From Bacillota bacterium (GTDB lineage Bacteria; Bacillota; Desulfotomaculia; Desulfotomaculales; Desulfohalotomaculaceae): a stretch of 64,000 bases of DNA. The DNA lies in the NCBI GenBank assembly GCA_009711615.1, contig VENI01000008.1, forward strand, positions 32,001-96,000, written 5' to 3'. Below, in pieces: positions 36,434 to 63,474 of this stretch (the first letter of the stretch is position 1; each line of letters begins with the position of its first letter). The translations under genes and the position numbers were made by a program. The notes below the pieces were generated by a model. The model did no database searches, was not told the DNA's origin, and was given only the letters and a program-made list of their open reading frames with translations.

Positions 36434-37009
36434 TTATTTAATGTCTTCAGTAATGTCCATAATTTTTAACTGAAACTGAAATCCTTCATATGAATTCAGC
36501 ATCCTGCCAAACTCTTCCCAAGTGAACTCCTTGCCGTCTATCACTAGTTTTGGAGTATCATTATCTTCGTTGTACTCAAATCTTCCCGTAACTTCACTAT
36601 CTTTGATAGAAATAGTCTTACCTCCATAGGGCGAAAAACTTTTTTTCAAATATCTTTTGAATATTGTCTTTTTGACCTTTGTTTTCAGCTTTTCTAACAA
36701 AAGTTGTTGGTCACAATCTACACCATCCATTACAGCTACGGTAAAACCAGGGCTACCATCTTTAGTAACTTCATTTGCTTCATATCCAATCCCCATAGGG
36801 CTTACTCTTCTTTGAACGTTAAAGATATGCTTTTTACCTCGTATCCCTGAAAACTCATAAATCCCTGGCTGGAAAGAACTAAGTTCTATCCCCATATAAT
36901 TTGCCGTAAAATTATTATTACATTCCATACAGATATGGATAGTTTTATTTTCAGAAATTGTTAAATGAACTTGTATATCATTTTTCCGACACAGCTCACA
37001 GAAACTCAT
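36434..37009 (-). CDS. Hypothetical zinc-finger-like protein
   Basis: The 191-residue protein starts with a zinc-knuckle pair (CELC at residues 4-7 and CMEC at about 27-30). It ends in a segment DGKEFTWEEFGRMLNSYEGF followed by QFQLKIMD, a pattern seen in small Firmicutes proteins that carry a CxxC...CxxC motif. The middle is basic (KLKTKVKKTIFKRYLKK). GGGAG lies upstream of the ATG. I cannot name the family with confidence. It sits alone in a decay zone and looks intact. Confidence 0.6.
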   Translation of the reverse strand: MSFCELCRKNDIQVHLTISENKTIHICMECNNNFTANYMGIELSSFQPGIYEFSGIRGKKHIFNVQRRVSPMGIGYEANEVTKDGSPGFTVAVMDGVDCDQQLLLEKLKTKVKKTIFKRYLKKSFSPYGGKTISIKDSEVTGRFEYNEDNDTPKLVIDGKEFTWEEFGRMLNSYEGFQFQLKIMDITEDIK

Positions 37010-37924: not shown

Positions 37925-39523
37925 TTATTCTTGTTTAAACTCGAGTTTACCCTTCAAAACTTCCGGTACATGTTTTGAAGAAATTTCATATTCAATATAT
38001 GGTGGAGTATCCTTAAACATAAGTACAGAAGGAAATGCCATAGTTGTGTTATGCTTTAAATACTCTATATGAAATGTCAAAATATCATTTTCTTCGTTTT
38101 CAAAAACCCTATACAGAAAAAGGGATTCTAAAGACTTTCGATAATCTTCTTTATCACTTTCATACTCTTCCGAGGCACTAATTTGATTTAACGGATTAAT
38201 CATCCCCATATCTTTATAAGATGGTGGTTGTATAGGATAATACCCATATTTTTCAACAGTGTCGCTCTCTTGTATTGAAAATACAAAATCGGTAAATTTC
38301 ATCTCTAATAATTCTTCTATTATATTTATACCCGGATACGGTAAATCCGAATGCTTTAAGATGCGACCTTTGGGGATTATTAGTTTAACGTCAATGTCCT
38401 CATCATAAGAATTGCCGACATTTGAAATTGCAAGTTTTGCAACGCTAATTACATCAATGTAACTAAAGTAGTCAATGTACTCATTGTAAGCTTTAACATC
38501 CCAATATAACTCTTCTAATAATGTATATCGTTCTTTTTCTTCCTCCGTTCCCTCAAATGAAGGACCACTATTACCAAAAGGATTTTTAAACTGTAAAATT
38601 TGCTTTTTCAAGTCGCCCACATTCCAGAAATCATCATCAAGTTTAATTTCATTTTTTTCAGCAAAATCTTTAATAGTACTTTTCCAATTATCACTAATAT
38701 CTGCATCTTTCATAGTTTCCGACACCATGTTAATGTTGCCCATTAGCTTTTGGATATCAATATTCTTCAGATAATTAGGGGGTTCCTTAAGTGTATCCTC
38801 AGGCCCCTTTGGATCATCTACTACCCGAGCCGGTAAACCTATATTTTTTAGTACTTGTATTTTTTTAATAATATCTTCTTTTTTATCATCAATAAACTTA
38901 CTGTCACACAAATTATTCTTGTACAAAGAATAATCTTTTTTTGCTAATGCATTTATATCTCTTACTTTCAAAATAGGATTTAACTTTTCATTTGTTGCGC
39001 CTTTCTCACCAGAGATCAGTGGTAAAAAATGTAGTGCAAGATGATTTGTAAACTGGCGTTGAAGTTCATGCTTGTCCTTAATTACAGCATAAACTCCTCT
39101 ATCTTTATACTTCTCCCTAAAATCCAAAACTCTTTGGTACTGATTCATATCGACTTTTGAGGGGTTAATTGGAGCATCTAAAAAGTACATAAATACTTGT
39201 TTGCCAACTGATAACATTTCTTCAATTTCTTCTTCTGTGCCTGAACCATACTTATCCGTTGGAGTACCAAATTTTGTCCAAAAAATTGCAATTGCCGCAT
39301 CACAATCTCTAACAAATTGTTTATTCAACAATTCTTGAGGTTTATCACCAGATTGAGGATAACTATCCGTGGACCAATGCTTAGTAACCACTTCAATATT
39401 ATTGATCACACCAAACACCCTGTTAAAACTTTCAACACTTTCTTTTATTACATCCAAATAGTCTAAGACATCTCCAGGACAAGAAATTAATAAATCATAA
39501 GCAGTAATTCCTTTTCTTGGCAT
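37925..39523 (-). CDS. DUF4062-domain protein of a defence-type locus
   Basis: The 532-residue protein begins with a DUF4062 domain (about residues 7-130): AYDLLISCPGDVLDYLDVIK, then HWSTDSYPQSGDKPQE, DAAIAIFWTKFGTPT and GTEEEIEEML. DUF4062 often forms the N-terminus of STAND/NLR-like or other immune-type proteins and is thought to have a TIR-like/nucleotide-binding fold. The middle is helical. The C-terminal part (about 340-500) includes LAISNVGNSYDEDIDVKLIIPKG, a beta-sandwich-like region. The ATG at 39523 follows AAGGAGGTG; the longer start has no site. It is the last gene of the run. Confidence 0.7.
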   Translation of the reverse strand: MPRKGITAYDLLISCPGDVLDYLDVIKESVESFNRVFGVINNIEVVTKHWSTDSYPQSGDKPQELLNKQFVRDCDAAIAIFWTKFGTPTDKYGSGTEEEIEEMLSVGKQVFMYFLDAPINPSKVDMNQYQRVLDFREKYKDRGVYAVIKDKHELQRQFTNHLALHFLPLISGEKGATNEKLNPILKVRDINALAKKDYSLYKNNLCDSKFIDDKKEDIIKKIQVLKNIGLPARVVDDPKGPEDTLKEPPNYLKNIDIQKLMGNINMVSETMKDADISDNWKSTIKDFAEKNEIKLDDDFWNVGDLKKQILQFKNPFGNSGPSFEGTEEEKERYTLLEELYWDVKAYNEYIDYFSYIDVISVAKLAISNVGNSYDEDIDVKLIIPKGRILKHSDLPYPGINIIEELLEMKFTDFVFSIQESDTVEKYGYYPIQPPSYKDMGMINPLNQISASEEYESDKEDYRKSLESLFLYRVFENEENDILTFHIEYLKHNTTMAFPSVLMFKDTPPYIEYEISSKHVPEVLKGKLEFKQE

Positions 39524-39577
39524 GCAACCCACCTCCTTTGATTTCCATTTGTTATATTGAATTCTCAAGATTATCTA

Positions 39578-44922: not shown

Positions 44923-47900
44923 TTATTCATGTATCTGAACATCGACAGCATTGTCTTCACTTCTAACTTCATATCGTTTTTCAGGCTTTCTATATACATT
45001 GACCAACTGATGACTTGTTGAAAACGAATTATCCTCAAGATAACTGTTGCTTCCGAAAATCATTTCTTCGATATACCGCGATTCTCGCTCAATCCAATCT
45101 GGCTGTTTCTTGCATAATTTTTCGATTCTTTTTATCATTGTGAGATTGCTAACATTTTCAGTAGAATCGTCCGGCATAATTATAAACAAATAATCTCTAG
45201 CACGACTAATAGAGACATTTACGATGTTAAGTTTATTGAGAAACATATCCTTTGAAGTCGATATTGACGGTGGCGGGTTGAATAGTGCGATAATAATGTC
45301 GCATTCATCACCTTGGAATCCGTGAATAGTCCCTACTTGAACATCAACATTCTTAGGGATCGTGAAAGAGGCCATTAACTTATCTATCAAGTCAGACTGA
45401 GCACGATACGGCGCAATCAAGCCTATACGAAAATACTCATCTCCATTTGCCATTTCAAGGAGAGAAGACATGTACTTTACGAACTCAAATGCAAAAAGTG
45501 CGGAATACACCTGATAATTACTCTTGCTTTGTAGACGTTTCGGACGATAAATGCTCTCGTATTTACTTACAGGAAATTTTATGATATTTAATGGCTTTAT
45601 ATCAATGAAGTCTTCAATAAGTAATGGTCGTCTATTATCTGTTGTACGGTTATGATGTAACACACCGCCATATGCAAACTGGCTGAACACTTCGCCAATT
45701 TCGGGAATGCTTCTATATTGAGTGGTCAGGAGTTCGACCTGGTACTGGTAGGGAATCGTTAAAGGTTGGGTAAACGATTTGAGTTCCACCATAGTGTAGA
45801 TGTTTTCGTTTTTCCAGATGTCTACGGTGGTAATCGGCTCTATCTGGAATGGGTCTCCCGCGATGATGAACTTCTTAGGTGTCTTCTTGTAAATTGGGAA
45901 AATGATATTGACCAGCGGAATCATAGACGCTTCGTCAATGATGATATAGTCCCACATTAGCGCACTCAAATGAAGCCTCGTGTTTTCGTCCGGCAGGAAG
46001 TAATCATAGGGGAAACGGGCAATTGTCGTAACCGTCACATTTCTTGGGAAAGTTCGAATATCAAAAGTCTTATCACTGAAAACCCCGCTCTGTTCAATGA
46101 TGCTGTCGTTAGTTGCCCCGAAGCGGACAAGCCAGTTAGTGTAACTGTGGTCTGCTCCCATGCTCTCCATAAGACGGCGTACAAGTACATCCGCCGCTTT
46201 GTTTGTCGGGGTCAAGACAAGAACTTTCAAATCCTCGTCTTCCAGCATAATGGGGAGAATAACCTCTCTCGCCAGATGAGTTGTTTTGCCGGTTCCGGGG
46301 GGGCCAAAAACGAACTCGATATTTTCGCATAGGTTGCTCTGCATATCGTAGTCGTCATCGAAATCCAGTTTATTAAATGCTTTCCGCAGTTCCTCCATTA
46401 GGAATACGGGGTTTTTTGCCTCTATTCTTGCTTCTTTGACGAGTGATAAATCCACCCCGTCTATGTTCGCGTTTGTCCTCAGTTTCGCCCTTAATGTGTA
46501 TGATTTTACGTTAACAACTTCAACTGCGACTTTTACCATCGACTGATTTGCAAAATGCAATTCAAGTGGAATATCCGCAAGGTCTTCCATAGACTGGGGG
46601 ATATAGCGGTTTGGATGCTTCAAGATAAGGGTTCGTGACGTGCCTTCCTCACGTTCTACCTTTGAGAAAGATATGGAAATCTCCCTACTGTTGGCGTTAT
46701 TCTCACCGCTGTTCAGAGATTCCATTTCAAGTAAAGCCTTGAACCACCCATAAGAATACTTGTCTGCATTGAGAGCTTGTTGAGTTAAATCTTCAAGATA
46801 AGCAATTTCTCTAATTTCCCGTTCACTTCGTTCTTTTGCTTGTTCAATTTTCCTACTGAAATCAACCGATGGCTTTAAATAATCATCCTCGTCGGCAACG
46901 GATGAACTTTCTTTGTCATCGGCTGGAGTGCCCGTTTTCTGTTTAGGTGCGGAAGTTGCTCTCTTGGAAATTTCCTTTGCGACGCGAGAAACAGATGGGT
47001 TGACAGTGGTAGCTTGATCATCCAGCATATCATCACTATCGTCCTCATCATTATTGCCCGCACATTTTTTGGCACGATATTCTTCAGCAGCCCGCGCCAG
47101 CACTTGCGGCGGTACATCCGTATAGGCATCAGCAAACTCTATTTTTGCCCGTTGCTCGTCGGTTAAATAGTCGTCGTCCTCATTTTCATCGATTTCTTCC
47201 AATATGCCTAAAAAATGGATTAGTTCTTTGGCTTCGTCACTCGAAGTGTCATATTGCTGAGAAATCGTTTGCAGAGTCAAATTGTCTGCAGAAACAAATT
47301 CGTCATCAATGTTCAATAGCCACGGTTTTGTGCGTAGTCGCCGTGCTTCAAACGATTCAAACAATTCACTTTCATAACGACGATAGAAATATTCATAAGT
47401 CCCGTATATTACATCCTTAAAGTGTTTCCAGCGTGAACATTTAGAAGATATTATCTTCAACAATTGATTCCATAGGGCAACGGATGTTTTGGGGGTCACA
47501 TTATTAATTACTTGTTTGCTCCCGTCAATATAGCGGTCTGTCCACTCCCGTGTATGCATATTGTAATACGCGGGCTGATTCCATTCATATGACGGTTTAA
47601 GCTTATATGCTTGTTCCTCGGTTAATTTTCGTTCGATAATAATTGTTTCTTTTTTTACGCCAAGTTCAGTCAGAAAACTCTCTAAGTAAGTAATATCTTT
47701 CTCATCAACAATGGACATATACTCAGCTAAATCAACAAATCGGGTATCTGGCTTCGGCTCGAAGTATTTCTTCATATCTTCCATAGGCCAGTAGAGGTCG
47801 CTCGCTTTCCCACGATAAACCGTGTCATCTTCAGCAGATCTATAGCTAACGAATTCGCAATCCCTAATTAAATCTATGTAGTCCTCGATCTCTGACTGCG

Positions 47901-49716
47901 GACACTCTTTATAATACTTAAAGAAGTTTCGAAAATGCGGGTCGGTATAAATCTCTTTAGCATCCTGATATTGCGGCAGAATAATATTGTAAATCTCATC
48001 TCGTAGCGAAGGTTCCTTTATACCTAGTCGTTGAATTAACTCGACCGTGTCTTCCTTATCTAAGAGAGCTTCATTAATGGTTTCGTAGCCGCTGACATCT
48101 TCAGAGGGAAGGAACAGTATGGCTTGTCCATTATCGTCAAAAGCGGCAAAAGCCCTATTGTCTTGATTTAGGAAAACCGGCTTGGTCTTTATTAGTTTTG
48201 TCCGGACATCCGTGCCAGAAACCCATTTGTAAAAGCTGTGTAACCAGTCAATTGTCTGTGCTTCAATGAATGTTGATGAAACACCACTTTTAGAGGTTCC
48301 GTCTTGATAAGTCCAACCTTCAAGAATATCTTCTTCGTTTAACCAAGCATTAGTAATTGAATCAATATATTCAGTAAGTGCTTTGTTCTTACGTAAAGTT
48401 TCCTGCCGACCAAAAGATGTGAAAACCCATTTGGCGTTCTCGTCTTCGCACAATGTAGCCAACTGCTTATTTGAAAATACCTCGGCAATTTGAGGAACGA
48501 ACGCCCAGTATGCATTTTGCATTGATATAAATCCATCAAAAGCTGGTAACAAGTCCTCGTTACTCATCTTTCCCAGAATAGCTGTATAAAATGGCTTGAA
48601 TGAAATTTTCCTTTTGTCGTTCACATCGCCAAAAGTTCCTTCGTCATAAGGAATAATGTCAAATATCTCATCATTAATAAGTGGATAACCATTTGCTTGA
48701 CCAATATCTCTAAGATAAACAAGACTATCCGCCGCCAAAGCAGACAATAATTCAATCATATCTTTATTATGCTGAACAGCTGCCCGGATACCCTCGCGGC
48801 TGTCAGTAAGCAAGAACGGTGCGTGAATAATGAAGTTCAGACCGGTTACCTCTTTTGTCGGGAAGAAGCAAAAGGCTGAATGGTGTTCTGCGGTCAGATT
48901 TCCTTTTTCATCGAGAAAGAAACCGACTGAATATCTATGTCCATTACCGTCTTTGCGTGAAAACAACCACAGCCTATCGTCATAGATTTCATCACCATCA
49001 TTTTGCGTAAGGCAAATAAGCTCCCCAACTGTTAAGCCGAATTGCTGCTTTTGCTCTATGAATTTACCGTATAATCCCAATGCGCCAGGGATTTCTAGCG
49101 AAATATTCTCAAGATGTGACAAAAACAAAAGCGGGTAATCTAACGAACGAAGTTTCTCAGAAATATCCTCATATGCCTCCGCTGCAATTCGCTCTGTGTG
49201 GTCAAACGGAAAAACAAATAATGTTTCGTCTGTTTTCCTGCCAAAAAAATCTTCACTAATTTTTGTCGGTACGATAAAACGATCTATTTTAAAAAAGATG
49301 TTCGGGTCATAAATATGCGGTGTTGATGTGTATTGAAACACCGACTTAAATCCAACACCAAATTTACCTATTGAGGCTTCACGTTTATTAGAGTTAGCAA
49401 TTGACGTTATTGCGTTAATATCGCCTAACGCATTGTTTGCGGAATCTTCTGCTTCAGTTGCTGGATTGGATATAGAAAATCGCCGTGATCCGTTATGCGC
49501 AAAGATTAATTTATCTTTATGCAACACAAAGCGAGCCGATGTTGCTTTTGCATCATCAGCGTTTTGGAGCAACTCATATATAAAGTGCGCTTGGTCGGAA
49601 TACTTCTCAACAACACTGTTCTTTACTCCGCGCAATGCAGGATCATCTAGAGCGTCAGCAAGACGCTCTCTGTGATTTGATAATTCGACAAAATAAATCT
49701 CTTCCTGAGTGTTCAT
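44923..49716 (-). CDS. Giant sacsin/HSP90-like ATPase fused to an SF1 helicase
   Basis: The 1597-residue protein has two ATPase parts. The N-terminal GHKL/sacsin-like domain shows ELLQNADDA (48-56) and GKFGVGFKSVFQY (117-129), with LTDSREGI later. A long helical middle includes an acidic, disordered segment (about 860-960). The C-terminal DNA2/UPF1-like SF1 helicase has Walker A GPPGTGKT (about 1136), IIDEASMIPL (about 1257), GDPFQIEPI (about 1285), HGFQGDECD (about 1462) and SISRARDYLFI (about 1500). The combination suits an ATP-driven sensor-remodeller acting on nucleic acid. GGGGGAAG precedes the ATG. It is the first and largest gene of the run and is intact. Confidence 0.85.
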   Translation of the reverse strand: MNTQEEIYFVELSNHRERLADALDDPALRGVKNSVVEKYSDQAHFIYELLQNADDAKATSARFVLHKDKLIFAHNGSRRFSISNPATEAEDSANNALGDINAITSIANSNKREASIGKFGVGFKSVFQYTSTPHIYDPNIFFKIDRFIVPTKISEDFFGRKTDETLFVFPFDHTERIAAEAYEDISEKLRSLDYPLLFLSHLENISLEIPGALGLYGKFIEQKQQFGLTVGELICLTQNDGDEIYDDRLWLFSRKDGNGHRYSVGFFLDEKGNLTAEHHSAFCFFPTKEVTGLNFIIHAPFLLTDSREGIRAAVQHNKDMIELLSALAADSLVYLRDIGQANGYPLINDEIFDIIPYDEGTFGDVNDKRKISFKPFYTAILGKMSNEDLLPAFDGFISMQNAYWAFVPQIAEVFSNKQLATLCEDENAKWVFTSFGRQETLRKNKALTEYIDSITNAWLNEEDILEGWTYQDGTSKSGVSSTFIEAQTIDWLHSFYKWVSGTDVRTKLIKTKPVFLNQDNRAFAAFDDNGQAILFLPSEDVSGYETINEALLDKEDTVELIQRLGIKEPSLRDEIYNIILPQYQDAKEIYTDPHFRNFFKYYKECPQSEIEDYIDLIRDCEFVSYRSAEDDTVYRGKASDLYWPMEDMKKYFEPKPDTRFVDLAEYMSIVDEKDITYLESFLTELGVKKETIIIERKLTEEQAYKLKPSYEWNQPAYYNMHTREWTDRYIDGSKQVINNVTPKTSVALWNQLLKIISSKCSRWKHFKDVIYGTYEYFYRRYESELFESFEARRLRTKPWLLNIDDEFVSADNLTLQTISQQYDTSSDEAKELIHFLGILEEIDENEDDDYLTDEQRAKIEFADAYTDVPPQVLARAAEEYRAKKCAGNNDEDDSDDMLDDQATTVNPSVSRVAKEISKRATSAPKQKTGTPADDKESSSVADEDDYLKPSVDFSRKIEQAKERSEREIREIAYLEDLTQQALNADKYSYGWFKALLEMESLNSGENNANSREISISFSKVEREEGTSRTLILKHPNRYIPQSMEDLADIPLELHFANQSMVKVAVEVVNVKSYTLRAKLRTNANIDGVDLSLVKEARIEAKNPVFLMEELRKAFNKLDFDDDYDMQSNLCENIEFVFGPPGTGKTTHLAREVILPIMLEDEDLKVLVLTPTNKAADVLVRRLMESMGADHSYTNWLVRFGATNDSIIEQSGVFSDKTFDIRTFPRNVTVTTIARFPYDYFLPDENTRLHLSALMWDYIIIDEASMIPLVNIIFPIYKKTPKKFIIAGDPFQIEPITTVDIWKNENIYTMVELKSFTQPLTIPYQYQVELLTTQYRSIPEIGEVFSQFAYGGVLHHNRTTDNRRPLLIEDFIDIKPLNIIKFPVSKYESIYRPKRLQSKSNYQVYSALFAFEFVKYMSSLLEMANGDEYFRIGLIAPYRAQSDLIDKLMASFTIPKNVDVQVGTIHGFQGDECDIIIALFNPPPSISTSKDMFLNKLNIVNVSISRARDYLFIIMPDDSTENVSNLTMIKRIEKLCKKQPDWIERESRYIEEMIFGSNSYLEDNSFSTSHQLVNVYRKPEKRYEVRSEDNAVDVQIHE

Positions 49717-49986: not shown

Positions 49987-50568
49987 TTAACTATATCTTT
50001 TTTCTGTGACTGACTCACTTACCATGCAGTACATTTTCTCTACACCATTTTTTGAAGCTTCAAAGTTATATGCATTATCCATGCTGATTCCAATGCTACC
50101 CGCCTCTTTTGCAGCATCAATGTTTGCACCAAGGAAGATAAACTCCCAACCATATTTCTCCTGCTGGTGTATTATAAGCTCTTTTACTTTCTCGCAGGAG
50201 AATTCCCGACTGGCATTTTCCAAACCGTCTGTTGTGATAACGAATATAATCTTACTCGGCCTTTTATCCTCACTTGTTTTTGAAAACCTATAACCCATAT
50301 CTAAAATAGTCTTTCCCACTGCATCTAACAGGGCTGTACACCCTCTTACAAAATACTCCTTATCAGTCAATCTTGCTTTCCTTGCATCAAGCCCATTCCA
50401 TAATATCTCATACTGATTATCAAATAGGACTGCTGTAACATTTGTTTCTCCTAATTGGCTCTGTTTCTCTATAAAAGCATTAAATCCACCAATGGTATCG
50501 CTTTCAAGACCTTTCATAGACCCGCTCCGGTCAAGCAGGAAAACAATTTCTGTTAATTTCCTATTCAT
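49987..50568 (-). CDS. von Willebrand factor A domain protein
   Basis: The 193-residue protein is a single vWA domain with the MIDAS motif LDRSGSMKG (residues 12-20), the GCTALLDAVG segment carrying the third ligand and ITTDGLENAS near residue 110. It has no signal or membrane segment, so it is cytoplasmic. Such stand-alone vWA proteins work with AAA+ ATPases or in stress (Ter-like) clusters. AAAGGA precedes the ATG. It is divergent, with a 96-base gap, from a HTH-protein gene; the two are probably one module. Function unknown. Confidence 0.85.
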   Translation of the reverse strand: MNRKLTEIVFLLDRSGSMKGLESDTIGGFNAFIEKQSQLGETNVTAVLFDNQYEILWNGLDARKARLTDKEYFVRGCTALLDAVGKTILDMGYRFSKTSEDKRPSKIIFVITTDGLENASREFSCEKVKELIIHQQEKYGWEFIFLGANIDAAKEAGSIGISMDNAYNFEASKNGVEKMYCMVSESVTEKRYS

Positions 50569-51224: not shown

Positions 51225-52637
51225 TTATTTAATTTGACATTCAATCTCCGTCCCATCCAGTAATGAAAATATGGCCTTACCATCTTCAAACACCGTTATC
51301 TTCTCAACCAGTGCAAAATACAAATCCAAATTAAACTCTGTTATTGGCGTGGCTTTCCTGATAATTTCAATAAAATGGTTTGCTTTATATCTTTCTAGTA
51401 GGTTTTCACTGTTTAGTTTATCTTTCCATTTTTCCATAAAGTAATCTTTATTTTCGAGTATAGCATTAAAAGTGTTTACGAAAGCCTGGTATAAAATTTT
51501 ATCAGCCACATGTTTGTTGTCACAGCACTTTTTTCCTTTAGCGATGTACTTTTTGTTACACCGCCATACAATTTTTCTAAACCTGTCATCGTTAGAATTC
51601 CATACTTTTCTGCCAAAGATGCTGCCGCATTTCCCGCATATCACCCTGCCTGCAAAAGGATTATCTACTGTAGCATAATCTACTTTTTTAATGTCATGTT
51701 CCTCTGCAAAGGCTCTTCTTCTCTCCATTTCAAGCTGGACCGCTTCCCACATGTCCTTATCGATAATGGCCGGGTGGCTCTCTTCTACATAATACCGGGG
51801 AATCTGCCCTGTGTTTACCACTCGTTTCTTTGTCAGAAAATCTACCGTGTAGGTTTTTTGAAGAAGGGCATCGCCTTTATATTTTTCATTTTGAAGCATA
51901 TTTCTAATGCTGCTTTCATACCACTTTGCTTTCCCGTTCCAGTTTGGTACCCCTTCTGCCTCTAACTCCCTGGCTATCCTGTTTGGTCCCTTGCCATCAA
52001 GGTAATCCTTATATATCCTTCTGACTATCTTGGCCTGTTGTTCATTAATAACAAGGTCCCCATCCTCATCCTTGTCGTAACCCAGAAACTTAGTATGATT
52101 GACAGCAACCTTGCCCTGCTCAAATCGCCTTCTAATTCCCCATGTGGAGTTCTCAGAAATTGATCGGCTCTCATCTTGAGCGAGGCTGGAAAGAATGCTT
52201 AGCAGGACTTCCCCTTTACTATCTAAGGTGTTAATATTTTCTTTTTCAAAAACGACCCCAATGCCTAAGTCTTTAAGCTGCCGGACATAATTTAAGCAGT
52301 CTAAGGTGTTTCTTGCAAACCTTGATATGGATTTAGTAATAATCATATCAATTTTTCCGGTCTTACAGTCCTCAATCATTTTATTGAACTGCTCTCTCTT
52401 CTTAGTGTTGGTACCAGAGATACCCTCATCTGCATAAATGCCAGCATATTCATAATCAGGATGGTTAGAAATGTAACCAGTATAATATTTAACCTGTGCT
52501 TCATAACTTGATAACTGTTCTAACTGGTCTGTCGAAACCCGGCAATAGGCCGCCATCTTCTTTTTCTGTGGTTTTAACCTTTCCGCGGTGCTCTGATTGT
52601 TTACCCTTGCGGGTATAACTGTAATGTTTTTTGCCAT
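51225..52637 (-). CDS. Large serine recombinase (integrase/resolvase family)
   Basis: The 470-residue protein has a resolvase domain with YCRVSTDQLEQ (catalytic Ser of the CRVS motif, about residue 35), TKSISRFARNT, then the Recombinase domain (KFLGYDKDEDGDLVINEQQA) and a zinc ribbon (CGKCG...C...C). A coiled segment follows. It performs site-specific integration or excision without a host recombinase. AAGGAGG precedes the ATG. The gene start overlaps the end of the preceding recombinase ORF. Intact. Confidence 0.93.
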   Translation of the reverse strand: MAKNITVIPARVNNQSTAERLKPQKKKMAAYCRVSTDQLEQLSSYEAQVKYYTGYISNHPDYEYAGIYADEGISGTNTKKREQFNKMIEDCKTGKIDMIITKSISRFARNTLDCLNYVRQLKDLGIGVVFEKENINTLDSKGEVLLSILSSLAQDESRSISENSTWGIRRRFEQGKVAVNHTKFLGYDKDEDGDLVINEQQAKIVRRIYKDYLDGKGPNRIARELEAEGVPNWNGKAKWYESSIRNMLQNEKYKGDALLQKTYTVDFLTKKRVVNTGQIPRYYVEESHPAIIDKDMWEAVQLEMERRRAFAEEHDIKKVDYATVDNPFAGRVICGKCGSIFGRKVWNSNDDRFRKIVWRCNKKYIAKGKKCCDNKHVADKILYQAFVNTFNAILENKDYFMEKWKDKLNSENLLERYKANHFIEIIRKATPITEFNLDLYFALVEKITVFEDGKAIFSLLDGTEIECQIK

Positions 52638-53777
52638 CCTTTCTAACCTCCTTTATAATGGTTTCTTCCTTTATATTCAGCCTGCTAACCACTTCATCAT
52701 CTATACTAGTTCCTGCGCAGGCACATTTTCCATTTTTAATATAGTTACTGCATTGCCATACTATTTTTTTGTAGGAAAGTTTACTGTTCCAAGTCCTGCG
52801 TCTTAATGTAGCACCACATTTACCGCAGTAAAGCATTCCCGTTAGAGGGTATCGATTAAGGTGTTTCCTTTGATGCCTTTCGCTTCAGCTCTTAATTTCA
52901 TTTCCACACTAACTGCTTCCCACATTTCCTTTGTAACAATTGGTTGATGGTTATCTTCTATATAATAGCTTTCTACTTGACCGTTGTTTGGTACTGTCCC
53001 TTTCTTTAAATGATCCGGAGTATAATACTTTTGCAGTATGGCATCTCCTTTATATTTTTCGTTCTTAAGAATGTTCAAGACTGTGCTTTCATGCCATCTG
53101 CCCCCTGCAACAGTCGATATTCCATCTGCATTCAATTCCTTGGCTATGGTAAATACCCCTTTGCCCTCTAGATAATCATTAAAAATTCTTTTAACTACTT
53201 TTGCTTGGTTTTGGTTTATAACCAAATTACCGTTATCGTCCTTATCGTAGCCCAGAAACCTTGTGGTGTTAATTATCAACTCCCCTCGCTCAAATTTCTT
53301 TTTTACCCTCCATTTGAGGTTGTCACTGACATTTTTACTTTCTTCCTGGGCAAAAGAAGAGAGGACGGTAAGCATTAACTCACCGTCCCCTGATAAGGTA
53401 TTTATATTTTCTTTTTCAAATCTTACTTCAACACCTATTTCTCTTAGTTCCCTAACTGTTTGTAGCATAATCGCTGTGTTTCTGGCAAACCTTGAGATAG
53501 ATTTTGTAATAATCAAATCAATGTCACCTTGCCTTGCCAGTTCTAGCATTCGTTTAAACCATGGTCTATTTTCAATGGTTCCACTAATGCCTCGATCGGC
53601 AAACACACCAGCAAACTCATATTCAGGATTTGCTTTGATGTATCTCTCGTAATAGCTTATCTGGTTTTCTAGTGATTCACCTTGCTTTTCATGTTCACTG
53701 GAAACTCTGGCATAGGCGCATACTCTTTTCTTTGTTTCCTTGGTTTCTTCTGTTGGCGCTATGATTCTAACCCGCAT
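52501..53777 (-). pseudogene. Second large serine recombinase, frameshifted in the zinc-ribbon linker
   Basis: The ATG at 53777 with AAGGAGGG upstream gives MRVRIIAPTEETKETKKRV, then YARVSSEHEKQGE (catalytic Ser), TKSISRFARN, the Recombinase domain with FLGYDKDDNGNLVINQNQ. The frame stops at 52842, just after KGNTLIDTL. One base out of frame, RYPLTGMLYCGKCGATLRRR, the expected zinc ribbon, continues to 52501. A one-base indel near 52850 splits the gene. Its 3' end overlaps the downstream recombinase. The catalytic part is complete; the DNA-binding end is detached. Confidence 0.85.
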
Positions 53778-54826
53778 TAAGGCCCTCCTTTCTATCAATT
53801 TGGTAGTAACATATATCACTCTAAAGGCCTTTATAGTCAAGTTAATAGAGCCGTTTATTCGAACTTTATATACATCAAAACCCGCTTTTTTAAGTTTTTT
53901 AAGTGTTGCCTCCGCATTCTCTTTTTTAGAAAGAGCCCCCACCTGAACCCGGTAATATTTCTTTATTTCAGCGGGTTTTTCGGGTGAGGGTGAAATAACA
54001 GCAAGAATATCCTTATCAACCCAAGTCATAATCCCGGCTGCCTCTTCACCTGTTTTCTTATCAACCTTTTTTCCCAGCAGGACACATTGTTTGCCACCTT
54101 TAATGACAGGTTTTTCTCTAAAGCGTAATTCGGTCACCTTATGAAATGTATCCCTTTTCACCCATGCAGGAATGATAGGCCCTCCGGGATAATACTTATC
54201 TGCACTAAGTTTTATTGCCACTACGTCACCAACTGCAATGTCATTTACTTCAGCTGCTTGGCTGTTTCCCTTATTCAGTTCTGCTTTAACAGCTGTCCGG
54301 AAAGTATCCATATTCTCTCCATGCTTTGGAAACCAGTGCAGCACGTCAGCGTGGTTACTGGCAATTCCCCTTTTATGGCCTTCACTATGGCAGATGATAT
54401 CTCTTTCACTCAGTCCAAACTTCTGACAAAGCATCACACAAAGCTCAATAGCATTCTGCCATGTTTTTCTAAAGTAGGCTTCCTGTTCTGCCACGTCATA
54501 CCCCACCATATTGGCTCCAGTGGAATAAGAAAACCCACTTGGCTCACAGAGTTCAAAGCCAATGTGGGTATTGTTTGCATTACCTCCAGCGTGCCAGCCT
54601 CGGTGATTCCATGGGAGGTACTGATAAACCCCTTCATCATCAACAAAGGCATGAACGCACACCTGCCGGTTTATCTCACCGGCTTTATAAGATTTATTCC
54701 AGCGATTAAACCACTCTGCCGTCATTACACCTGGAGTTGCAGTTGAGTGCACCATAATGCCTTGGGGGTTGATCTTCCTTCCTGGTAGCAATCATTATTG
54801 GTCATATATTTTGCGGTTAGTTTCAT
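53778..54826 (-). pseudogene. Phage N-acetylmuramoyl-L-alanine amidase (endolysin), frameshifted and fused to the recombinase frame
   Basis: An amidase_2 domain is clear: GIMVHSTATPGV, VHAFVDDEGVYQYLPW, WHAGGNANNTHIGFELCEP and ICHSEGHKRGIASNHADVLHWF. Then come an SH3-like region and a SPOR-like end (YYRVQVGALSKKENAEATL). The natural start is the ATG at 54826 (MKLTAKYMTNNDCYQ, GAGGAG upstream, inside the holin gene), but the frame shifts before GRKINPQ. Its 3' end has no stop before the recombinase start, so the long ORF is an artificial fusion. The lysin is probably inactive. Confidence 0.85.
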
Positions 54827-55235
54827 CTTTTTTCTCCTCTGCTTTACCATTAAACTGGGCCAACACATCGGTTAGCTTTTTAGGAATAGGTAGGCCAATT
54901 CTACTTGCATTTTCAATAATGCTGATACCTTCATTGGACAAATAGAAAAAGATGACTGCTGTGCGAATAGCACTGCCGTCACCTATTATCCGGCTATCTA
55001 TGATATGGGCCACCCCGACAAGGGTAAAAATAAGTACCTTTTTAAAGATACCTCTAGCACCAATGTCGCTGGAAAGTCTTTTATCAATGATTGCAACCAT
55101 AACCCCTGTTACGTAATCCACAACCACAAAGGTTATAAGGGCGTATAAAAAGCCATCATAACCGCCGAAAAACCAACCCAACCAACCACCCACCGCAGCA
55201 ATAGCCATCTGTAAATAAGACCATATTTCTCTCAT
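54795..55235 (-). CDS. Phage holin family protein
   Basis: The 146-residue protein has three to four membrane helices, begins MREIWSYLQMAIAAVGGWLG and contains YALITFVVVDYVTGVMVA and IFKKVLIFTLVGVAHIID, the toxin-secretion/phage-lysis holin (Holin_4_1/phi29-type) pattern. It ends in a charged tail (KAEEKKDE). Holins time phage lysis by making holes in the membrane. GAGGAAG precedes the ATG. Its end overlaps the lysin start, as in a lysis cassette. Confidence 0.9.
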   Translation of the reverse strand: MREIWSYLQMAIAAVGGWLGWFFGGYDGFLYALITFVVVDYVTGVMVAIIDKRLSSDIGARGIFKKVLIFTLVGVAHIIDSRIIGDGSAIRTAVIFFYLSNEGISIIENASRIGLPIPKKLTDVLAQFNGKAEEKKDETNRKIYDQ

Positions 55236-55275
55236 TTTACTTCCTCACTTTCATTTATCATTAGATCTATATAAA

Positions 55276-55326
55276 AAAGACGCCAGTGATTATAAAGCCG
55301 GTAGGCTCAAATCACATAGCGTCTTT
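55276..55326. terminator. Hairpin between the membrane gene and the holin gene
   Basis: AAAGACGC / GCGTCTTT form an 8-bp outer stem with a further GATT / AATC pairing inside. It ends the moron-type gene block upstream of the lysis cassette. Confidence 0.6.
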
Positions 55327-55388
55327 ATTTTCTTCATTTTTATCTCAATTGTTGAAATATTCTATTACACGTTTTATAGAAAATCAAA

Positions 55389-55856
55389 TCAACTAATTGA
55401 GTGACTATCTTCAGATTTCCCACTATGCTTATAAAAGCTCGTAATAACCACATACCCAAATATTAGTTGAAAGATAAGTATAAAATTAGTTCCATATTTT
55501 ATCAATGTGCTCAGAATAGGATCAACCAAAAATACTTTTTGCAAAAATTGATTATTACTAAATCCTAAAAAATATGTAAGTGAGAAATATAATGATGGTA
55601 GTCCCATTATAGTTATCTTGGGTAAATTAATTTTCCAGGTTCCATCTTTTTTCACTTCACTAATTAAATGTTCTAGACCTAGAATTAAACCTATACCTAC
55701 ATTAATAAACATAGCGATAGTTAAAAAGTATAAATTGATACGAAATGTTTCATTAAAATCTGCTTTTAATTGTGTAGCAACATACTCCTTTGACAATACC
55801 AAAATAATTATTAGTACCGTGTAAATAGTATACTTTAACCATCCTTTTTTCTTCAT
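55389..55856 (-). CDS. Four-helix membrane protein, paralogue of the one at 57163-57600
   Basis: The 155-residue protein (ATG at 55856, AAGGGGG upstream) has four predicted membrane helices. A motif DGTWKINLPKITIMGLPSLYFS closely resembles SGQWYLDWVKLLGVGLPSLYIT in the gene at 57163-57600, so the two are paralogues. Location in the prophage moron region suggests a phage-borne cargo gene. No catalytic motif is seen. Function unknown. Confidence 0.65.
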   Translation of the reverse strand: MKKKGWLKYTIYTVLIIILVLSKEYVATQLKADFNETFRINLYFLTIAMFINVGIGLILGLEHLISEVKKDGTWKINLPKITIMGLPSLYFSLTYFLGFSNNQFLQKVFLVDPILSTLIKYGTNFILIFQLIFGYVVITSFYKHSGKSEDSHSIS

Positions 55857-55973
55857 AACTTCCCCCTTAATAAAATAATGCATCTTTTATCAAATGCGCA
55901 TTAGATACTATAGGTTATTATTAGACTGTACTGCTCCTAGGTATATAAAGAACATTATAGAAAGGCACCAACA

Positions 55974-56957
55974 TTAATGGTTTACTACTGTATCAACATC
56001 AACTACCCACCAAGACCCTCTATCAATAACTAAATAATATTTCTGTTCTGATTCAGCAATAAACTTATCATCATCTTCTTTTCCAAAACTGACGATAACA
56101 GAAAAGACCTTATCGAAGGTACTATGTTTACCTTCAAATTTTGTGCCTGAAACATCAAAAGCACTGTATTTGTCCTTAATTTTGTTCAACAAAAAAGTGT
56201 CTTTCACTTCAGGATGTATATAGTCTGATGGATTGTTTTCTTGGTCTATTAAATTATTAATGAAGTGCCGCATAAAACGATAGGGAAATTCCATATCATC
56301 GTATCTAGGTTCACGATTAAAGAAGGTATATTTTTTTACTTTCCATTGAGGTTTTACTTCGATTTCTTGGGTTTTTCCAGTTTCTTTATCTTTTAGTTAA
56401 ATTGTAAATCTCTTTATATCTAAAGAACTATAATCATTGGCTCTTACCTCAATTAGAGATACTTTACTGATGCTCCTAGAACTTAAGCGTTGCCCATTAA
56501 CAAGTTCATTTCCAGATTCGTCAAAAATTTCAACAGGGTAATCTGGTCTACTCCAATCGAACTCAGTATACATTACGCCTGAAACTCTAAGTGTACTTGT
56601 ATCGCTATAGTGAATTTCGTAAGGGGTACTGTAAAAATAACAAACATTAAGAAAAGGAAAATATAGTGATTGAGGTAATTTGTTTGCAATTGCAATTTGC
56701 CAATCGTATAAACCTAGCCTATTGATGCTGGAAGTAAGATTTTGAAGTTTAGCCTCTTCTACATAAAAAAATGAATTACCTACTTTTAATTCTTTATCAA
56801 TTGTAAATGTTTTTAATGAGTAGCAATGTTGCTTGTAATAATAAGCTGAAATGATTAACCAAATAACTAAAAGACAACAAAATATTTTAATAAATGTTTT
56901 GATGTTAAATCTCTTTGCTTTTACCACACTTTCTTCAGTTGAATTGATAGTACCCAT
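55974..56957 (-). pseudogene. Membrane-anchored protein gene interrupted by a single in-frame stop
   Basis: The ATG at 56957 (GAGGAGG upstream) opens a frame with one membrane helix (about 20-42) and an outside domain (VGNSFFYVEEAKLQ...FTI). It meets TAA at 56397-56399, then continues in the same frame with LKDKETGKTQEIEVKPQWK and the ORF at 55974-56294. The whole product would be about 326 residues. An AAA-to-TAA change would account for the break. The protein family is not recognised. It sits among small phage membrane genes. Confidence 0.85.
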
Positions 56958-56972
56958 TATAGACCTCCTCAG

Positions 56973-57131
56973 CTACCTTCTTTTTTCTACGAAAAGTAAT
57001 ATTAGAGTAGCAAGTGGTCCCAAAATTAAGGATATTAAAAACCAATTAAAACCGCTTCTGTTTTTACCTTGAGCTAACCCAGCATTTATTAATGATAAAG
57101 TTCCCCAACCTGCATAAAAATCACTACTCAT
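56973..57131 (-). CDS. Small two-helix membrane protein (52 aa)
   Basis: A 52-residue ORF begins MSSDFYAGWGTLSLINAG and ends LIL...LLFVEKRR, with two hydrophobic segments around a basic loop (QGKNRSGFNW). GAGGTG lies upstream of the ATG. It precedes the interrupted gene by 15 bases in the same orientation, suggesting an operon. It is missed by length cut-offs. Similar to small phage-borne membrane proteins; function unknown. Confidence 0.65.
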   Translation of the reverse strand: MSSDFYAGWGTLSLINAGLAQGKNRSGFNWFLISLILGPLATLILLFVEKRR

Positions 57132-57162
57132 TTTATACACCTCTTAAATGTTTTATTTTTTC

Positions 57163-57600
57163 TTAAGTGCTTTTCTTCTTTATAGCTGTTAGAAGTGTGT
57201 GACCAAAGATTAAGCCAAACATAGTTATAGGTATTTCAGAGATGCTTAATAATCTATGGCCGGGCCAGAAAAACAAGTTAGGTAGTAAATTACCTAACGT
57301 AAAATAGATCAGCACGTTGAAAGTAATATAAAGAGAGGGCAGGCCAACCCCTAATAGTTTTACCCAGTCTAAATACCACTGGCCCGACTTCCTCACGGTG
57401 CAGATGAACAAAGGTAGTGCCAATAACATCCCTAATACTACAGGGTATGTTGCCATATAAAGCATTATCAGCTTAGCGTTAAAACTACCAATCATCTGAC
57501 GTTCTAAATATTGCTGATAGATAAGACTCCAATAAAACACTAAGCCAAAGAAAATCATATACAAAAAATAACCTAGTAAGCGTTTTATAGTGTTATTCAA
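57163..57600 (-). CDS. Four-helix membrane protein (paralogue of 55389-55856)
   Basis: I prefer a TTG start at 57600, with AGGGGTG at the right distance, giving 145 residues (LNNTIKRLLGYF...). The protein has four membrane helices and the shared motif GLPSLYITFN. Upstream, the same frame is open through 57763 and reads LFDIAIAALGHLGLTLFAIV, a further hydrophobic segment that may be another small gene without a clear start. Function unknown. Confidence 0.6.
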   Translation of the reverse strand: MNNTIKRLLGYFLYMIFFGLVFYWSLIYQQYLERQMIGSFNAKLIMLYMATYPVVLGMLLALPLFICTVRKSGQWYLDWVKLLGVGLPSLYITFNVLIYFTLGNLLPNLFFWPGHRLLSISEIPITMFGLIFGHTLLTAIKKKST

Positions 57601-57762
57601 ACAATCACCCCTCTTAGCAAAACTATTCACTAGTAATTTAATAATTCCTTTTGCATTAGAGGAAAAATACCCGCTACAGATCAAACAACTTACAATGGCA
57701 AACAGGGTTAAACCCAGGTGACCAAGCGCTGCAATGGCAATATCAAATAATTACCTATATCA

Positions 57763-58824
57763 TTAATAAGGTGCGTAGTGAACACAGTTATTTCCTTTGA
57801 CATAAAAACCATCATCAGGTACATAAATGGCACCTCCAAAACTCTGATTGGAAGTAAGGCCGGACTGCTCTACACCCTCCCATGTCAAACCATCTTCAGA
57901 TACATAAAGCATTCCTTCATTAAATAAAGCATATTTACCCCAGCTCTCCATCCAAATAATATTTTGAGGATTGGGGGTGTTGTTGCTATCTAAATCTCCT
58001 ACATAGGACAGGTTTGTTTCTGTTACCTGAGTGGCATCATCGTTTATAACACAAAGGTTAACATGAAAAGTTCCGTCTATATATCGCCACTTCATCACAA
58101 AGAGCTTTTCGTGAACCGATTTTAAATATATATAAGACGTTTCGTCCTGATCCTCAGGTATGGTGATAGTCCAGACACCGGGACTTGAGGGATTTGCCTT
58201 AGCAATTTCTGTGTCGCTACTAGTAATGCCTACAAATAACCCCTTATGAGCGGTTAGGGAACTAAAAACCGGTACTGATGAACCGTCAGAGCCTACCAGA
58301 ACCCAGGCAGTCCTTTCTGTTAAAGAATCATAACTGTAATAAAGGGGTGACTTGTAATACCAAAAACTCACAATACCACACCCCGCCCCCGCATCATAGG
58401 CTCCAACGGTCATGGCATTCTGTGCATTTTCACAGTAGCCGCCATTATGCCAAGTGATGCCATCAAAGGAAGCGATAATATTGGAAAACCCAGTAATCTT
58501 GGCTAAGAACACGCCATCTCCTGCCCAGAGGATTTGCGGTTCGCCATAGCTCCACCAGGGAACATCAGCAATTGTCCACTGCCCTGTGGTTTTATCAAAG
58601 TAAGACATATAAGGGGTCTTGGCATAATAGACAGCAATTTGAGCCTGGCCATTATCATAAACACTAATCTGCCTCTCGCTATTGTAGGAAGAATAGCCAA
58701 AGTCGTAATAATAAAGTTTTTGCCAATTAAGAGAAGGTATCTCAAATAAACGTTTAAGATTCCCTCTACCCCCAAAGGCTGTCCATATGGCCAGAGGGTT
58801 ATTGAATCCTTTATCATAACTCAT
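57763..58824 (-). CDS. Phage tail-fibre or adhesin-like protein
   Basis: The 353-residue protein is rich in aromatic residues and repeats beta-strand units such as WTIADVPWWSYGEP, SFDGITWHNGG and YVSEDGLTWEGVEQ. The last two fit the sialidase/BNR-like (S/D-x-D-G-x-T-W) repeat. A beta-propeller is likely. It lies directly downstream of the tail endopeptidase gene, in the usual place for a receptor-binding or fibre protein. GGAG precedes the ATG. Confidence 0.65.
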   Translation of the reverse strand: MSYDKGFNNPLAIWTAFGGRGNLKRLFEIPSLNWQKLYYYDFGYSSYNSERQISVYDNGQAQIAVYYAKTPYMSYFDKTTGQWTIADVPWWSYGEPQILWAGDGVFLAKITGFSNIIASFDGITWHNGGYCENAQNAMTVGAYDAGAGCGIVSFWYYKSPLYYSYDSLTERTAWVLVGSDGSSVPVFSSLTAHKGLFVGITSSDTEIAKANPSSPGVWTITIPEDQDETSYIYLKSVHEKLFVMKWRYIDGTFHVNLCVINDDATQVTETNLSYVGDLDSNNTPNPQNIIWMESWGKYALFNEGMLYVSEDGLTWEGVEQSGLTSNQSFGGAIYVPDDGFYVKGNNCVHYAPY

Positions 58825-58838
58825 AATTAAACTCCTTA

Positions 58839-60008
58839 TTAAACCTTATCTATTGCAGTAATTCTGCCATTGCTATCTGTGGTATAGTTATAAACTGCGT
58901 TGGTGCCGTCCACATAGGTAACTTCAAAGCTATTTGAACCCACTAAAAGATTGGAAACTTCCTTTAACAGCAGCTCTGAAGTGATGTTCTCCAGTTGAAT
59001 GCTGGTAATCTTGCCATTACTATCACTGGTATAGCTATACTGAGCACTGTATTGGGTAATCGAATCCTTCTCCACCTCATAAGTAACATTGATAAAACCG
59101 TTTTCAATGGAGAGATTAGAAACCACAGCATATGCTATCTCCATCTGATCCATCTGATATTGAAGATTGCCAACGGAGTAATCAACTTCAGTAAGGGACT
59201 CATCAACTTTGCTAAGGGATTTCTCCACAGTAGTCATAGAGCTTTCAATCCGATAAAAGGTGTCTGAAATACTGGGTTTGTATTTGCCTACTTCCACTCG
59301 AATGTTATAGCGGTAAAAAGGGTTGTACTCCAGGGAAATTATCCGGGTTTTTACATCAATACCCAGGGGCTTAAAAACAATATGTACGTTATCTCCCACC
59401 ATGAGGTTTAAGAGCTTGAAAAAAGAGATGTCATAAGATGAAGAGTTTTCTCTGGAGTCATAGGATACCGCCACGTTGGTAACGTTTTTGGTGTCCATCA
59501 CCTTTTTATAGTTACTACTGCCCCGGTGGCTTCGAATATTTATCTTATAGCCGTCATATTCTAACTCCCCGCCTAGAATGGCAATAAACTGCATTAATGC
59601 CGATCGTCTCGTAACCTCCTGATTAATCTTCATGGTAGTACTTTCGGTATACTCCACTACCCCCACCGCAAAGGGGGTTTCAGCTAGGATCAGAGTTAAT
59701 CCGTCTGCAGGGTTTCCTTTGAAATCAAAATCGTTAATGTTATACATATCATCATTCAAGGTATAAGATATGTGCTCGCAAATGACAGAACAGATCGGAA
59801 GGCTACCCTGAAGCGATTTCTTAATCTGCACAATTTTAAAATACTGCCCATTAAGCTTCACTAGTTGTTTGGTCTTTAAGGCCAGGGCAGACTTTGCCAG
59901 CACCGTAAAGGATAAGGTAAACTCGCCCTCTAGGGTTTCTCTAGCATTGGCCGTCATCACTTTACGGATGGTTTGAATTAGAGTATTACCTGCATAAATT
60001 TCTATCAT
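58839..60008 (-). CDS. Phage tail protein (prophage endopeptidase tail family)
   Basis: The 389-residue protein has the baseplate/Tal-like layout: beta-rich N-terminal rings (NARETLEGEFTLSFTV, VKLNGQYFKIVQIKK, CEHISYTLNDDMYNI), a domain with LGGELEYDGYKINI and a C-terminal coiled coil (TTVEKSLSKVDESLTEVDYSV) followed by two small beta-repeats containing SDSNGKITSI and SDSNGRITAI. It is a tail-tip protein that binds the tape measure. AAGGAGG precedes the ATG. Confidence 0.9.
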   Translation of the reverse strand: MIEIYAGNTLIQTIRKVMTANARETLEGEFTLSFTVLAKSALALKTKQLVKLNGQYFKIVQIKKSLQGSLPICSVICEHISYTLNDDMYNINDFDFKGNPADGLTLILAETPFAVGVVEYTESTTMKINQEVTRRSALMQFIAILGGELEYDGYKINIRSHRGSSNYKKVMDTKNVTNVAVSYDSRENSSSYDISFFKLLNLMVGDNVHIVFKPLGIDVKTRIISLEYNPFYRYNIRVEVGKYKPSISDTFYRIESSMTTVEKSLSKVDESLTEVDYSVGNLQYQMDQMEIAYAVVSNLSIENGFINVTYEVEKDSITQYSAQYSYTSDSNGKITSIQLENITSELLLKEVSNLLVGSNSFEVTYVDGTNAVYNYTTDSNGRITAIDKV

Positions 60009-61808: not shown

Positions 61809-61932
61809 TGTAAGTGGTAAACTAAAAGGGACAAATTTTGGCCATTAAAAACGGACGATTATTTCCAGTTCACATACCACTTTTCTTAGTTAACTGGTAT
61901 ATTTATCAGGTAACGTGAGAGGAGTGAATAAA

Positions 61933-63474
61933 ATGGTGAGGTGGAAAATGTATAGCGAAATTCTTCGACTTAAAAACTTGGGATTTAATAAATCACAAGT
62001 AGCAAGGCAACTAGGTATTAATGTAAAAACGGTAAGTAAGTACTGGGATGTTGATGCCGAAGGTTTTTCCAATGTTTTGCAAAGTGTTGGTGACCGGTCA
62101 AAGAAACTAGATAAGTACAATGATGTTATCCTTGGGTGGCTACGAGAATTCCCAGACATCAGTAGTGCCCAGGTGATGGACTGGCTTAAGGAACACTACA
62201 AGGTAACTGATTGTAGAGGGCGTACTGTCCGGCGCTATGTATCACGACTTCGAAAGAAACACAACATCCATAAAAAACAAGCTAGCAGGCAGTACCAAGC
62301 AGTGGTTGATCCGCCGATGGGTAAACAGATGCAAATTGATTTTGGAGAAACAACAGTGCGGAAGTCCACAGGTGGATATATTAAAATTTACGGCATGGGC
62401 GTAGTGCTTTCACACTCTAGATACAAATACGCAGAGTGGTCAGATAAGCCACTTACCTCAGCCACTTTTATTCAAATGTTGGGACGCTGTTTTGACTACA
62501 TTGGTGGCGTTCCTGAAGAGTTGGTCTTTGATCAAGATAAGATAATTGCAGTCAGCGAAAACCATGGTGATATTATCTACACCTTTGAATTCGAAAAGTT
62601 TAAGCAGGCTATGGGTTTTAAGGCATGGCTTTGTAGAAAAAGCGACCCTGAGAGTAAAGGCCGAGTTGAAGCAGTTGTAAAGTATATGAAGCGTAATTTT
62701 GCCGCTAACCGTCTGTTCATAGATCTTAAAATATGGAATCGGAGTTGTGAAGATTGGCTGGAACGAACAGCAAATACTAAGCGTCATGGCACAACAAAAA
62801 AGATACCAGCAGAGGTGTTTCTCTTGGAAAAGCAGCACCTCAAACCAGTACCTTATACAAATAATATACCTAAGGATATTGTAACAAGAGCGGTAAGAAA
62901 AGACAATACTATCCTTTACAAGAGCAACCGTTACTCCGTACCGGTTGGCACATACAAACAGGGCATAGAATTAGAGCTAGAAATAGAGGACAATTGCATT
63001 ATCCTCTATCATCTCTTTACCAACCAAATTGTAGCTAAACATAAAATTAGTTTGGAGAAAGGTGCGTTAATTCAAAACAACAATCATCTCAGAGATAACA
63101 GCAAAAAAATAGATGAGCTTTACCAAACAACTCTAGAGAACCTGGGTGGAGGTGGCAATGCCGCTGAGTTTCTTAAAGCCATCCGTCGGGAGAAAACCAG
63201 ATATGTACGTGATCAGTTTGGGGTAATGAATGAGGTGGCAAAAGTTTACCCTAAACCTATTGTGAAAAAGTCCATCGCCTATTGTCTAGAGATGAGTCTT
63301 TACAGTGCTGTGGATTGCCGTTGTGCAGCAGAATATTTTCTTAGCCAACAAGAAACATCTGTTGATATGTCAATATTAGATAATCCAAATTCATGGCCAC
63401 AATACCTCAAGGTAAAAGCTGAGCAGAGAAGCATCACTGCATACTCCAGACTCTTGGGAGGTGCCAAACATTGA
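61933..63474 (+). CDS. istA: IS21-family transposase IstA
   Basis: The 513-residue protein has an N-terminal HTH (NLGFNKSQVARQLGINVKTV), an rve/DDE catalytic core with QIDFGE (Asp about 135), VFDQDK (Asp about 198) and SKGRVEAVVKYMK (Glu about 244), and a C-terminal DNA-binding part. It catalyses cut-and-join of the element. I prefer the ATG at 61933, with GAGAGGAG upstream, to the GTG at 61915. Intact. Confidence 0.95.
   Translation: MVRWKMYSEILRLKNLGFNKSQVARQLGINVKTVSKYWDVDAEGFSNVLQSVGDRSKKLDKYNDVILGWLREFPDISSAQVMDWLKEHYKVTDCRGRTVRRYVSRLRKKHNIHKKQASRQYQAVVDPPMGKQMQIDFGETTVRKSTGGYIKIYGMGVVLSHSRYKYAEWSDKPLTSATFIQMLGRCFDYIGGVPEELVFDQDKIIAVSENHGDIIYTFEFEKFKQAMGFKAWLCRKSDPESKGRVEAVVKYMKRNFAANRLFIDLKIWNRSCEDWLERTANTKRHGTTKKIPAEVFLLEKQHLKPVPYTNNIPKDIVTRAVRKDNTILYKSNRYSVPVGTYKQGIELELEIEDNCIILYHLFTNQIVAKHKISLEKGALIQNNNHLRDNSKKIDELYQTTLENLGGGGNAAEFLKAIRREKTRYVRDQFGVMNEVAKVYPKPIVKKSIAYCLEMSLYSAVDCRCAAEYFLSQQETSVDMSILDNPNSWPQYLKVKAEQRSITAYSRLLGGAKH

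Follow-up and report, generated by a model that had tools for sequence, protein, structure and literature searches.

One gene in the window, by which we mean the whole stretch of 64,000 nucleotides analysed here, encodes a sacsin-type GHKL ATPase and a UPF1-like SF1 helicase in a single conserved chain. Both predicted ATPase modules have their key residues intact, and copies of the gene lie in restriction and defence loci. We suggest, with a probability of about 0.4, that the fusion is a defence accessory that works together with restriction and that its SF1 motor is controlled, on restriction-attacked DNA, by an ATP-gated clamp. We prefer this reading to a chance joining because the fusion recurs in the anti-virus gene clusters of distant bacteria, often behind a restriction enzyme. 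For the protein itself we infer that it is an active ATPase, that it dimerises, that its substrate is DNA and not RNA, and that it is physically linked to restriction enzymes.

Gene and domain layout

An earlier note on this DNA had described one uninterrupted chain of 1597 aa; its coordinates and length proved exact and the frame is open, with no internal stop. The note did not give the strand, which is minus, the gene reading from 49716 to 44923, and the plus strand of the same interval has stops throughout. The start ATG lies at 49716, and AGGGGGAAG just 5′ of it is a plausible ribosome-binding site. The motifs ELLQNADDA and GKFGVGFKSVF, noted before as N-terminal, are found at residues 48-56 and 117-127, and the proposed acidic linker between the halves was located as well, with 29 D/E versus 16 K/R. 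The idea of two independent ATPase modules is borne out by profiles, residue conservation and fold comparison of low-to-moderate-confidence models. The middle region has no Pfam domain in a Pfam profile search. Features are collected in Table 1.

Table 1. Positions of the fusion gene, its parts and two neighbouring genes in the window
Feature	Position	Strand	Basis
Whole fusion gene, 1597 aa	44923..49716	-	Intact frame; AGGGGGAAG before ATG; single copy in source genome
Predicted sacsin/Hsp90-type GHKL ATPase with Hsp90-middle-like strand and arginine loop, residues 1-345	48682..49716	-	SACS, P_loop_sacsin, sacsin SR1 fold match, invariant catalytic residues
Middle region, residues 346-845	47182..48681	-	Collinear with PADLOC TmtA (profile over 39-844)
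Acidic, poorly conserved linker, residues 846-960	46837..47181	-	D/E excess; 26% mean identity across copies
Putative stalk helix and beta barrel before RecA1, UPF1 1B-like, residues 961-1115	46372..46836	-	Weak model; 54% mean identity
UPF1/SEN1-like SF1 helicase core, residues 1116-1530	45127..46371	-	AAA_11/AAA_12, profile and fold matches, invariant motifs
Conserved C-terminal tail, residues 1531-1597	44926..45126	-	Own profile hits family members only, among the loci fetched
RecD-like helicase with C-terminal PD-(D/E)xK-like motif, PADLOC PDC-S68, 1217 aa	40515..44168	-	PDLC05065, 1421 bits
VWA-like protein, 193 aa, upstream neighbour, putative system role	49987..50568	-	VWA E=3e-4, below curated cut-off

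The N-terminal ATPase

The N-terminus matches Pfam SACS above its cut-off (E=3e-17) and NCBIfam P_loop_sacsin with 73 bits (cut-off 50), and solved sacsin SR1 domains match the N-terminal half by sequence. For an AlphaFold2 model of residues 1-850, built from six sequences (mean pLDDT 67), VIA-align ranks human sacsin SR1 first (Z 11.9, rmsd 3.2, 144 aligned), ahead of the ATPase regions of Hsp90 and GyrB. Foldseek places the Hsp90 N-domain first (E about 1e-3), and searching a viral structure library yielded nothing beyond general GHKL matches. Structure prediction thus recovers the GHKL fold that had been proposed from the motifs.

The positions listed for Hsp90 (E33, N37, D40, G118, G121, G123, F124 and T171; PMC9880540) have as their counterparts E48, N52, D55, G117, G120, G122, F123 and T165 of the fusion, each of which is invariant in 12 of 12 full-length copies. 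The catalytic arginine, R380 in Hsp90 and R474 in sacsin, sits in a loop that connects a strand to a long helix (PMC9880540). Its candidate counterpart is R307, likewise invariant in all 12, which the model places in a strand-loop-long helix topology (loop pLDDT <50); the pairing of G117, T165 and R307 with Hsp90 positions is our own, by motif order and topology. From motifs and modelled fold, we assign residues 1-345 as a sacsin/Hsp90-type GHKL ATPase, in which the Bergerat motifs E-N-D and GxFGxGF and the motif IV Thr are present.

The C-terminal helicase

Pfam AAA_12 (E=4e-23) and AAA_11 (E=4e-15) match the C-terminal half, which carries SF1 motifs I (GPPGTGKT, residues 1138-1145), Ia (TPTNKA), II (DEAS, 1261-1264), III (GDPxQ, 1287-1291), IV (QYR, 1333-1335), V (VGTIHGFQGDE, 1461-1471) and VI (NVSISRA, 1500-1506). 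The key residues of all these motifs are invariant across the 12 full-length copies. Over both ATPase and helicase, 22 of the 24 listed positions are invariant in every copy, A56 and G76 being the two that vary. The description of this half as DNA2/UPF1-like holds for the complete motif set but needs adjustment in its affinity, which is closer to UPF1, SEN1 and senataxin than to DNA2. The top profile and fold matches are SEN1, senataxin, UPF1, IGHMBP2 (SMUBP-2), ZNFX1 and Aquarius; a DNA2-type helicase is less likely, the UPF1/SEN1 matches being stronger and no DNA2 nuclease domain having been found in the chain. In a weak model of residues 935-1597 (mean pLDDT 52), RecA1 is preceded by a long helix, a beta barrel and a further helix, which may be the order expected of a UPF1-like stalk and 1B domain. 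When the C-terminal tail of about 65 residues was used as a profile, nothing outside the family was matched among the fetched loci.

UPF1-like helicases often have RNA as their substrate, and among the nearest solved helicases RNA helicases prevail (SEN1, senataxin, UPF1 and ZNFX1). The leading alternative, conceivable if unlikely, is therefore that the fusion is a guard or abortive-infection sensor, whose GHKL half senses a phage protein or the inhibition of restriction and activates the UPF1-like half on RNA or ribosomes, upon which the infected cell stops. Coupling to restriction-modification (R-M) genes would be compatible with a guarding of restriction, of which PrrC is an example. However, ssDNA is also a substrate of UPF1-like helicases, and an RNase or other toxic domain was recognised neither in the fusion chain nor as a constant partner at the loci with annotated neighbours. 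The UPF1-like CnuH helicases of CoCoNuT systems, whose predicted target is RNA (PMC11090510), again speak for such a sensor.

Recurrence and origin of the fusion

Eleven other full-length copies, with 32-75% identity and the same domain order, were found in other bacteria, on Bacteroidota plasmids and on viral contigs. The closest is that of Bacillus massilionigeriensis (L040, 75%), followed by those of genomes G102, G415, G190 and G508 (63-67%), the viral-collection contigs L071-L074 (45-56%), a Chryseobacterium plasmid (39%) and a Hymenobacter plasmid (32%). These copies rule out a chance fusion, a frameshift or a misassembly. The search for the same fusion also disposes of the notion that the two domains are always separate genes in relatives: full-length relatives carry both in one gene, and only distant relatives have one half alone or with another partner.

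The identity matrices of the N-domain and the SF1 domain are strongly correlated (Mantel r 0.94, p 0.0001). Because divergence in the two domains is matched in this way, the family fits one old fusion that would have been inherited as a unit.

Within the phylum, full copies are present in 3 of 397 other sampled genomes and fragments in two; none of the 112 other genomes of the class has a full copy. The fragments are from the helicase part (L036 9907-10572 and L037 3920-4417; 76-81% identical) and are apparently decaying copies. In sister genomes, the genes that flank the fusion site fall on different contigs. A scan of viral contigs returned four copies with the family alignment as query and none with the window protein alone.

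SF1 helicases and GHKL ATPases are also known for quality control, as with MutL and UvrD or with UPF1, and the fusion could in principle be a housekeeping factor for DNA or RNA that is unrelated to phages. The patchy distribution just described, together with the copies on plasmids and viral-collection contigs and the defence genes that adjoin them, already disfavours such a role, which we regard as very improbable.

Neighbourhoods and the association with restriction

Neighbours could be read at 10 separate loci, with the near-identical L071 and L073 treated as one locus and L023 left out for its short contig. A DNA methyltransferase or R-M system adjoins or lies near the fusion in six of the 10, and none is nearby in the other four. 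At four separate loci (L032, L033, L071/L073 and L074) the fusion is directly downstream of type III Mod-Res genes on the same strand, the gap from Res to fusion being at most 146 bases; in L074 the arrangement includes a 4-base overlap. One extra gene stands between Mod and Res in L032 and L074, and the Res of L071 was recognised through Pfam ResIII. Each of the four Mod genes falls into a different PADLOC subfamily, and the link of the fusion is therefore with restriction as such and not with a particular enzyme.

The remaining loci are more varied. In L035 type I HsdS-HsdR genes and a YgjP-like gene lie close to the fusion, in L034 it is convergent with an adjoining Hma-like methyltransferase and SNF2 gene, in L085 a GajB-like helicase is near, and in L072 only a polymerase and a transposase are visible around it. 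No Mod, Res or other R-M gene was recognised beside the fusion among its neighbours in the window. The recurrence in restriction and defence loci is suggestive, these being raw counts in a setting where defence genes cluster in general.

A second recurrent neighbour is the RecD-like PDC-S68 protein, whose C-terminal SE...PDF...EHxG is invariant in eight proteins. It adjoins the fusion in the window, L040 and L035, where it reads as two frames with one TGA inside, and is four genes upstream in L033. The adjacency is suggestive because PDC-S68 is uncommon (6 of 396 genomes), again with the reservation that defence genes cluster. The PDC-S68 protein of the window is 84% identical to a copy on an IncC plasmid of Vibrio fluvialis (L089 15001-18654), which suggests that the gene moved recently between distant bacteria. 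That PDC-S68 is an obligate partner is not supported: no sacsin-helicase fusion adjoins the Vibrio copy, and several fusion loci have no PDC-S68. Assignment of the VWA-like gene to a TerY-P module was dropped, no kinase or phosphatase being recognised beside it.

Other genes of the window may be noted. In the same block as the defence genes are a 547-aa protein with weak DUF4062 and partial PADLOC PDC-S60 matches (37925-39568, minus) and, adjoining them, a DUF7685-DUF7686-DUF7713 protein (36434-37009, minus). A 519-aa protein with weak Mu-type transposase and TnsD matches is at 61915-63474, plus. The defence genes come directly past the recombinase end of a prophage-like block (51225-60008, minus) with a tail endopeptidase, an endolysin and two serine recombinases. 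In one 649-aa frame of this block (52842-54791, minus), an amidase endolysin and a SPOR domain are joined to a serine recombinase of which only the N-terminal two-thirds is present. Since endolysin and recombinase ('DNA invertase') are separate, adjacent genes in related gut phages, the frame looks like an in-frame joining at the prophage end.

Comparison with known systems

Among the closest known defence proteins is TmtA of Tiamat, in which a sacsin-type GHKL ATPase likewise precedes a long middle region. Its PADLOC profile (PDLC03972, E=1.8e-38) is collinear with fusion residues 39-844, with no alignment past 844. Unlike Tiamat, the fusion continues into an acidic linker and a UPF1-like SF1 helicase; a Pfam search of the window protein found no NOV_C, and with this C-terminal feature absent we do not file the fusion as Tiamat. 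Among the matches to the last part of the TmtA profile is the NOV_C region of the G110 protein, and the fusion family looks like a member of the same ATPase class with a helicase in the place of NOV_C.

Bacterial sacsin-type NOV_C (DUF3883) proteins share this N-terminal ATPase class but have NOV_C at the C-terminus and no helicase; among the phylum-sample proteins fetched, those of G110, G480, G195 and G284 end in this way. The G110 protein comes directly after HsdR and a YgjP-size gene. In L075 (2060-11685) an 1872-aa sacsin-NOV_C protein comes after type I R-M genes and a YgjP-size gene, the same gene order as in L035, where the fusion comes after PDC-S68.

The TmtA collinearity, the alternation of NOV_C and helicase, and the copies with no adjoining R-M gene, that of the window included, would all suit a stand-alone Tiamat-like defence protein with an exchanged C-terminal effector, the restriction genes being mere co-residents of a defence island. 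We consider this rather unlikely, given the close same-strand placement after Mod-Res at four separate loci and the overlapping genes of L074.

The occurrence of GHKL proteins alongside helicases and nucleases in R-M loci has been described before (PMC2292703). MORC and paraMORC systems couple a GHKL ATPase to helicases and nucleases in restriction loci, but with other GHKL families and a separate SF2 helicase instead of a fused SF1 (PMC2292703). CnuH of CoCoNuT is a UPF1-like helicase with stalk and OB-fold serving as a restriction-system module; it differs in having SmpB-like and RNase-like domains fused to it, in its McrBC-type partner proteins and in the lack of a GHKL ATPase (PMC11090510). 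VcSduA, a Shedu protein with GHKL, joins an N-terminal GHKL ATPase to a nucleic-acid enzyme in one defence protein, the enzyme being a PD-(D/E)xK nuclease and not a helicase (PMC12137116). Mokosh (PADLOC MkoA/MkoC) shares the UPF1-like SF1 core, but the match is confined to the helicase (residues 1254-1521 or 1430-1513) and is not full length, the GHKL half is unrelated to the MkoA match, and no MkoB-type partner was recognised at the window locus. We found no publication on a sacsin-type GHKL-SF1 fusion in a search that had most subscription papers and the restriction-enzyme databases outside its scope.

Possible mechanism and significance

GHKL ATPases are ATP-driven dimer clamps, and MutL cooperates with the SF1 helicase UvrD. 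In the restriction accessory that we propose, the sacsin-type half would be an ATP-operated clamp or switch, probably an ATP-dependent dimer as in MutL, gyrase and Hsp90, and the UPF1-like half a translocating motor. The trigger would be the cleavage of unmodified phage DNA by a restriction system, or the stalling of such a system on it. The clamp would then load the motor onto the exposed DNA, and the motor would unwind the attacked DNA or strip its proteins, with the outcome that phage repair, replication or expression fails; the DNA might be finished off by the nucleases of adjoining genes, e.g., Res or PDC-S68. More specifically, and only tentatively, the fusion may represent a new class of restriction accessory: a GHKL clamp and SF1 motor in one chain that would have arisen when a sacsin-type ATPase exchanged its NOV_C end for a helicase, and that would serve type III (and some type I) restriction systems as a third functional component, so that one local cut would lead to phage DNA being processively destroyed or else silenced. 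The role suggested in the earlier note, in sensing or remodelling protein-nucleic acid complexes, would also be possible.

Finally, we note that sacsin-type ATPases keep turning up in the defence loci of bacteria with no function assigned to them, and that even for human sacsin the ATPase cycle is disputed (PMC9880540). Should the helicase prove to be gated by ATP at the GHKL site, the bacterial fusion would reveal what this class of ATPase does. If the proposal is true, type III restriction operons can include a built-in motor that acts around cleavage.
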